Of a DNA stretch of 36,810 nucleotides, positions 2,734 through 3,543 are shown one piece after another. The stretch is from contig JAFNYY010000090.1 in NCBI GenBank assembly GCA_017383125.1, forward strand, positions 1 through 36,810, given 5' to 3'. This DNA is from Schwartzia sp. (in: firmicutes). Its GTDB lineage: Bacteria > Bacillota > Negativicutes > Selenomonadales > Selenomonadaceae. Every line of letters begins with the position of its first letter. The first letter of the stretch is position 1. The notes beneath the pieces were generated by a model. The model ran no database searches and had not been told where the DNA came from. It was given only the letters and a program-made list of their open reading frames with translations. Both the position numbers and the translations under genes were made by a program.

Positions 2734-2782
2734 TTGTGGTATTCTTGTATGAATAGAGATTAAATTTTGGGAGGCAATAGAA

Positions 2783-3148
2783 ATGCGCGGCATTCGCGGA
2801 GCAATAACTATCAACGAAAACACCAGAAATGACATTTTCTCGGCATCCAGATGGCTGGTTACTGAAATGTGCCGGAAGAACGGTATAGAGCCTGAGGACA
2901 TCGGCGCGGTAATTTTCTCCGCGACAGAGGATGTCACTGCGGCTTTCCCGGCTACCGGAGCCCGTCAGATACCAGGCTTTGATTTAGTTCCGCTTTTTGA
3001 CACCCGTCAGATGGCCGTGGAAGATTCTCTGCCCATGTGCATCCGTGCACTTATCCTTGCCGATACAGACAAGGCTCAGAAGGACATCTATCATGTGTAT
3101 CTCGGCGGCGCCGCAAACCTCCGTCCCGACCTGCGCAGATTATCTTAA
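2783..3148 (+). CDS. aroH: AroH-type chorismate mutase with exchanged active-site acid
   Basis: Monofunctional AroH-class chorismate mutase (chorismate to prephenate, first step toward Phe and Tyr), a small trimeric enzyme. The 121-residue length and the RGIRGAIT start, [11 protein letters not shown] block, CIRALI block and [13 protein letters not shown] end match the family throughout. Ungapped alignment to the Bacillus subtilis enzyme, as I remember its sequence, keeps Arg7 (Arg5 here), Cys88 (Cys86) and Arg90 (Arg88). However, the positions of Cys75 and Glu78 are Asp73 and Gln76. Glu78 is normally important, so the acid appears to have moved three residues (see findings). GGGAGG at 2769-2774 precedes the ATG. 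It is followed by ridA after only 14 nt, so the two are probably co-transcribed. Confidence 0.92.
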
Positions 3149-3162
3149 AAGGAGAAACAGCA

Positions 3163-3543
3163 ATGAAAAAAGTTATTTCCACGGCAAACGCACCTGCCGC
3201 TATCGGCCCCTACTCTCAGGCAATCGTTGTCGGCGGTCTGCTCTTTGTTTCCGGACAGATCCCCCTGGATCCGGCTACCGGTGCTATGGTAGAGGGCGGT
3301 ATCGAGGCTCAGACTGCCCGTGTCCTTGACAACCTGAAGGCCATTGTGGAAGCTGCCGGCAGCTCTCTCGCCAAGGCAGTAAAGACTACAGTATATATCA
3401 CCGACATCAACGATTTCGGCAAGGTAAACGAGATTTACGCCGGATACTTCACCGAGAATCCCCCGGCCCGTGTCTGCGTCGAGATTTCCAATCTGCCCAA
3501 GGGTGCACTGATTGAAATTGACCTCATTGCTGAGGTTGCCTGA
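3163..3543 (+). CDS. ridA: RidA family enamine/imine deaminase
   Basis: RidA (YjgF/YER057c/UK114) hydrolyses reactive 2-aminoacrylate and related imines released by PLP enzymes, protecting cells from PLP-enzyme damage. The 126-residue length is standard. Visible motifs are the start [16 protein letters not shown], the block [12 protein letters not shown], and the C-terminal signature around [21 protein letters not shown], with the substrate-binding Arg (in PPAR) and the Glu of IEID. I chose the ATG at 3163 because AAAAGGAGA lies just upstream and because the longer frame from 3037 overlaps aroH and has no family similarity. It lies between aroH and tkt in an apparent operon, linking it to aromatic amino acid and pentose metabolism. 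Confidence 0.95.

Follow-up and report, generated by a model that had tools for sequence, protein, structure and literature searches.

A natural AroH chorismate mutase with Asp75 and Gln78: putative relocation of the active-site carboxylate across the Selenomonadaceae

Chorismate mutase, the enzyme toward phenylalanine and tyrosine, is a standard test case for rate enhancement without covalent chemistry, and enzymes of the AroH class are homotrimers with active sites between the subunits, each completed by the neighbouring subunit. One point debated in chorismate mutase catalysis is what Glu78 contributes next to Arg90. In a laboratory selection on Glu78 of Bacillus subtilis AroH by Kast et al. 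in 1996, Asp at position 75 reportedly compensated for the loss of Glu78. The DNA analysed here (36,810 nucleotides of Schwartzia sp., contig JAFNYY010000090.1; hereafter the window) encodes an AroH protein with Asp and Gln at the positions of Cys75 and Glu78 of the B. subtilis enzyme, and the question raised by this locus was whether such a protein is a working chorismate mutase with its carboxylate moved by three residues.

The gene and the residues discussed below are listed in Table 1. The encoded protein covered the whole Pfam CM_1 profile (PF07736; positions 1-116 of 116, 145.3 bits against a cut-off of 27, E = 1.3e-42) and matched the NCBIfam AroH equivalog TIGR01796 along positions 1-117 of 117 (137.3 bits, cut-off 82), so that full-length matches above the curated cut-offs were obtained for both AroH-class models. 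The AroQ class has an all-helical fold, and no match of the window protein to its model CM_2 (PF01817) was found, CM_1 being the sole Pfam match at E 0.001. An AF2 model, computed with an input alignment of 70 window and locus sequences, had a mean pLDDT of 96.6, and its monomer was superimposed on chain C of B. subtilis 1com with an rmsd of 0.8 Å over 116 columns and a TM-score of 0.94 (query length); the predicted structure thus has the AroH monomer fold. The closest solved structures by sequence were Thermus AroH and designed variants, followed by Clostridium and Bacillus AroH. The gene order was ABC1-type kinase gene, aroH, RidA-family gene and transketolase gene, and the order of neighbours around aroH was identical in a same-genus genome (L054). 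The RidA/YjgF-family gene (PF01042) lies at positions 3160-3543 of the window, directly 3′ of aroH, as it does in L054. Since RidA trimers adopt a fold like that of chorismate mutase, aroH and its neighbour encode structurally similar proteins next to each other.

Table 1. Positions of aroH and of its predicted functional residues in the window (B. subtilis AroH numbering in parentheses)
Feature	Position	Strand	Remarks and basis
aroH, monofunctional AroH-class chorismate mutase	2783..3148	+	121 aa, ATG start, TAA stop
GGGAGG, likely ribosome-binding site	2769..2774	+	8 bases 5′ of ATG, from sequence
Arg5 (Arg7)	2795..2797	+	alignment
Arg61 (Arg63)	2963..2965	+	alignment
Asp73 (position 75), proposed relocated active-site carboxylate	2999..3001	+	codon GAC; alignment, family survey
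Gln76 (Glu78), acid absent	3008..3010	+	codon CAG; alignment, family survey
Cys86 (Cys88)	3038..3040	+	alignment
Arg88 (Arg90), transition-state-stabilising cation, proposed Asp73 partner	3044..3046	+	alignment; PMC5458464 and PMC10782440, available parts
Tyr106 (Tyr108)	3098..3100	+	alignment
Arg114 (Arg116)	3122..3124	+	alignment

The initial annotation had placed Asp73 at Cys75 and Gln76 at Glu78, and Cys86 and Arg88 at Cys88 and Arg90, using the B. subtilis segment VPVTCMQEMDV. This segment is present in PDB chain 1com, and both pairings were reproduced in a gapless alignment with B. subtilis AroH, with the codons of the first pair falling exactly at 2999-3010. The conserved residues Arg7, Arg63, Arg90, Tyr108 and Arg116 were all found in the aligned window protein (R5, R61, R88, Y106 and R114), and a carboxylate at either 75 or 78, a feature drawn from the survey described below, was present as Asp73 at 75. 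Glu78 of the type enzyme was replaced by Gln76, and the Pfam and NCBIfam models were passed regardless. Judged by the family models, the window protein is a typical AroH-class protein, and the predicted place of the acid is the sole trait that sets it apart from the type enzyme.

The published descriptions of B. subtilis AroH suggest what Asp73 might do. In the available part of one report, the C4 hydroxyl is hydrogen-bonded by Glu78, with the Cys75 amide named alongside, and Arg90 offsets the charge of the ether oxygen (PMC10782440). In a QM model, described in the available part of another, Arg90 is salt-bridged to Glu78 and, in the transition state, leans toward the ether oxygen; the hydrogen-bonding residues include both Cys75 and Glu78 (PMC5458464), which puts residue 75 within the active site. 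We consider it likely, at a probability of roughly three in four, that the window protein is a working AroH chorismate mutase with its active-site carboxylate moved from 78 to 75. The side chain of Asp73 would take over the contacts of Glu78 with the C4 hydroxyl and with Arg88, and Gln76 would stay as a neutral filler.

AroH sequences were surveyed in the own family (Selenomonadaceae), its class and its phylum; 248 genomes, 98 of them from the own family, stood behind the genome loci. AroH was found in 180 of 189 own-family genomes, from which these 98 were sampled. In total 281 loci were gathered, and all except the short fragment L264, for which no match was found, were aligned (280), giving 266 distinct sequences, and removal of nine fragments shorter than 108 residues (among them L262 and L266, pieces from one genome) and of the broken copy L265 left a full-length set of 256. 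Sampling was non-random: the best-scoring loci were taken first, and extra loci of the genera g12 and g16, along with every one of the 17 matches in family f101, were then added for their exceptions. Records from other collections comprised 11 plasmid and 4 phage records, from Listeria, Streptomyces and Nonomuraea, and 5 of the 9 actinobacterial matches were examined, all with Cys75/Glu78.

At positions 75/78, the 256 full-length sequences had Cys/Glu (81), Asp/Gln (69), Gly/Glu (60), Asp/Glu (34), Asp/Val (10), Asn/Glu (1) and Ser/Glu (1); the corresponding counts for all 266 distinct sequences were 84 Cys/Glu, 69 Asp/Gln, 60 Gly/Glu, 39 Asp/Glu, 10 Asp/Val, one each of Glu/Gln, Asn/Glu and Ser/Glu, and one gap. 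Without Asp75 (Cys, Gly, Ser or Asn at 75), Glu78 was kept in 143/143 of the full-length set, and with Asp75 it was gone in 79/113 (69 Gln, 10 Val) and kept in 34/113; Asp75 need not, then, mean relocation in every sequence that carries it. The state with no acid at either site was not found among the 265 distinct sequences readable at both positions, every one of which had an acid at 75 or 78. Arg7, Arg63 and Arg116 were each present in 256/256 full-length sequences and Arg90 in 255/256; position 108 was Tyr in 244/256 and Phe in 12/256.

An alignment of homologues had been proposed in the initial annotation as a check on the swap. For the counts per family, 250 rows were used (the named loci L031-L052 were excluded). 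The own family (97 sequences) had Asp/Gln in 53, Asp/Glu in 32, Asp/Val in 10, and Cys/Glu and Glu/Gln in one each, so that Asp75 was present in 95/97, and Asp/Gln was seen in 27 of 30 own-family genera; all 48 sequences from 25 other families of the same class had Gly75/Glu78. The putative acid swap, put forward there for a single enzyme, is broader than that and prevails throughout the family. Outside the class, Asp/Gln recurred in families f42, f71, f101, f124 and f170, which makes six families in all, and Cys/Glu, Gly/Glu, Asp/Glu and Asp/Gln were all found within f101. The residue swap described in the initial annotation is real, and its evolutionary pattern is the one expected of a functional relocation of the carboxylate; the contacts of Asp73 are a proposal, and the activity of the enzyme is probable.

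Several sequences in the survey showed further changes. Phe replaced Tyr108 in L015, L020, L063, L081 and others (genera g5 and g21), many of them with Asp75/Gln78, as a further change in the active site. L234 (genome G422), with Cys75/Glu78, had Lys for Arg90 and Leu at 88 and was the sole sequence of the 256 without Arg90; its Arg90-to-Lys change has a laboratory parallel in the engineered C88S/R90K variant, according to the available part of the record for structure 1fnj. L265 (G126:C11:77223-77570; AroH-like frame 1495-1836), from an own-family genome, is a second, degenerate copy lying 3′ of a hisS-like frame, with Glu75/Gln78, Lys for Arg7, loss of Tyr108 and an in-frame stop, and is probably a pseudogene or a repurposed paralogue; it was the only case of Glu78 loss without Asp75. 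At G114:C52:10771-11404, two adjacent AroH matches were found, the second of which covered profile positions 28-116 only.

The two columns were also examined for coupled change. By corrected mutual information (257 rows, columns at least 3 apart), columns 75 and 78 ranked 5th of 6443 pairs, below 44-94, 44-74, 74-94 and 4-97, and column 78 had no stronger partner than column 75 (0.252, versus 0.116 for the next). This rank, the counts at the two positions and the low dN/dS given below speak against a chance origin of the swap. Trees were computed without columns 75 and 78, with 114-115 columns remaining, and rows shorter than 108 residues, L265, L031 (the same gene as L054) and L074 (Asp/Gln, misplaced start) were absent from them. 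Near-identical rows were also removed for a tree of 203 rows, and a stricter identity filter was applied for a tree of 121 rows, from which six further rows were dropped: L240, L246, L248, L249 and L251, for long branches or poor placement, and L136, with Gly/Glu, which had landed among Asp/Gln rows. Models of dependent evolution of the two sites were favoured over independent evolution on two trees (LR 34.1, p = 7e-7; LR 35.4, p = 4e-7).

The fewest changes required were 10 for Asp75 and 8 for Glu78 loss in the 203-row tree, and 12 and 11, respectively, in the 121-row tree, with many forks unresolved in both; bootstrapping had not converged for the careful tree. A constraint placing all Asp75 sequences in one clade was rejected (p-AU 0.0005), and the rejection persisted when f42, a distant family, was removed (p-AU 0.0009). 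By the trees, and under the model used for them, Asp75 appears to have arisen more than once. Some Gly75/Glu78 rows of other families sat among own-family Asp75 rows (L136 and L135 in the 203-row tree, L012 and L135 in the 121-row tree), and aroH may have been transferred horizontally between some families. In genus g18 of the own family, L017 and L109 differ (Cys75/Glu78 and Asp75/Glu78) and group together, at a position that varies between trees; its aroH has perhaps been replaced or transferred.

The codons suggest a route for the change. They were TGY (Cys), GGN (Gly) and GAY (Asp) at 75 and GAR (Glu), CAR (Gln) and GTN (Val) at 78, so that the passage from Gly75/Glu78 through Asp75/Glu78 to Asp75/Gln78 requires one base per step. 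The likely order would be GGY to GAY at 75, followed by GAR to CAR at 78, and by way of the double-acid stage Asp75/Glu78 the glutamate can go without the site ever losing all acid. The Asp/Glu rows of the own family could instead be reversions. On balance we favour, with less assurance than the relocation in the window protein itself, a history in which the carboxylate moved from 78 to 75 several separate times, each via Asp75/Glu78, and in which the vacated position 78 became Val in one genus.

The own genome (84% complete) contained one AroH, no AroQ and a prephenate dehydratase; another chorismate mutase in the genome, named in the initial annotation as an observation that would speak against the swap if the enzyme were inactive, was thus looked for and not found there. 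AroQ was likewise not found in 39 of 41 further genomes, including the 100% complete same-genus genome G001, and was present in G194 and G734. Prephenate dehydratase was present in 40 of the 42 genomes and was not found in G003 and G467. Restricted to genomes whose AroH lacks Glu78 (32 further genomes and the own), AroQ was absent from 32/33 (the exception being G194) and prephenate dehydratase was present in 31/33 (all except G003 and G467); the Asp/Val genomes checked were all without AroQ and with prephenate dehydratase (9/9). Against its nearest relative, of the same genus and identical at 113 of 121 residues, the window aroH had a dN/dS of 0.08 (28.5 silent and 9.5 replacement differences), indicating purifying selection. 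Because AroQ is missing from nearly all of these genomes, prephenate dehydratase is present in nearly all and dN/dS is low for the window gene, the Glu78-less AroH enzymes are very probably active.

Three other explanations were weighed against relocation. The most serious, which we nevertheless regard as unlikely, is that Asp75 helps structurally or electrostatically, for instance through a salt bridge orienting Arg90, with no contact to the hydroxyl and with a somewhat slower enzyme as the result. The persistence of Glu78 in 34 of the 113 full-length Asp75 sequences, as if Asp75 were useful alongside it, fits such a role, as does the Arg90-Glu78 salt bridge of the wild-type B. subtilis model (PMC5458464, available part). 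However, Glu78 is lost only beside an acidic residue 75, and the nine Asp/Val genomes have no AroQ, so that the role of Glu78 seems to be covered in its absence.

It is much less probable that position 78 is unimportant in these lineages and has drifted, its link with Asp75 reflecting shared ancestry and not function. The trees are weakly resolved, and the independent-pairs sign test on the starred branches, in which no pair was contrary, is underpowered (4 pairs, p = 0.25; 3 pairs, p = 0.5). A nested test for faster Glu78 loss on an Asp75 background gave no difference (LR 0.1 and -0.1), although it says little, because its model can pass through the no-acid state, leaving it at the upper rate bound. 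Against drift stand the 143/143 retention of Glu78 without Asp75, a dependent model with p below 1e-6, the rejected single-clade constraint on Asp75 and the occurrence of Asp/Gln in six families; plain drift at 78 was rejected on the coupling of the two positions (dependent model, mutual information and the 143/143 count). Least probable of all is that the protein has lost its chorismate mutase function through repurposing or ongoing decay, prephenate being supplied by another enzyme. The missing Glu78 of the type enzyme would agree with this, and a second enzyme could be missed in a genome that is 84% complete, but no AroQ was found in that genome or in 39/41 others, the complete G001 included, prephenate dehydratase was present in 40/42, and R7, R63, R90, Y108 and R116 are kept. 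A second chorismate mutase was rejected as the explanation on these genome counts, and gene decay was rejected on the dN/dS of 0.08.

Relocation of the carboxylate, the reading preferred here, can be set beside known systems. B. subtilis AroH (BsCM; 1com, 2cht, 1dbf and 3zo8) resembles the window protein in its fold and in Arg7, Arg63, Cys88, Arg90, Tyr108 and Arg116, and differs from it in having Cys75/Glu78 instead of Asp/Gln and Lys60 instead of Thr58; many relatives also lack Lys60. The AroH enzymes of Thermus thermophilus (1ode and 1ufy) and Clostridium thermocellum (1xho) count among the nearest relatives of solved structure, in sequence as in fold, but have Ser75/Glu78 and Cys75/Glu78, respectively. 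In all four natural solved AroH enzymes examined (B. subtilis, B. pumilus 7r4b, T. thermophilus and C. thermocellum), Glu78 is present and Asp75 is not. The 1996 selection dealt with laboratory variants at Glu78, whereas the window-type swap is natural, family-wide and recurrent; the question they share is whether an acid is needed at 78. That Glu78 study of B. subtilis AroH (Kast, Hartgerink, Asif-Ullah and Hilvert 1996, J. Am. Chem. Soc. 118:3069) is cited in the available part of PMC12329711, according to which a glutamate stands at the ligand hydroxyl in the evolutionarily unrelated AroQ enzymes (CM_2) and in B. subtilis AroH alike. No natural Asp75/Gln78 AroH was named in the titles and abstract openings of the open-licence PubMed Central matches listed. 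On these comparisons the window protein belongs to a known family and is a new natural variant of it, in which a putative relocation of the carboxylate is fixed across a bacterial family.

The Cys/Glu, Gly/Glu, Asp/Glu, Asp/Gln and Asp/Val enzymes form a natural graded set on one scaffold, with which it can be asked whether catalysis depends on negative charge in the vicinity of Arg90 and the C4 hydroxyl, and not on a particular residue. The two sites also offer an apparently clean case of epistasis, one seemingly being free to change only if the other carries the acid, and annotation that takes Glu78 as essential would wrongly label such enzymes defective. Related bacteria in which the switch was apparently repeated may thus serve as a natural test of how a model enzyme works, and, if true, the history proposed above would show a catalytic residue of the textbook pericyclic enzyme relocated in nature repeatedly, with every stage alive today.
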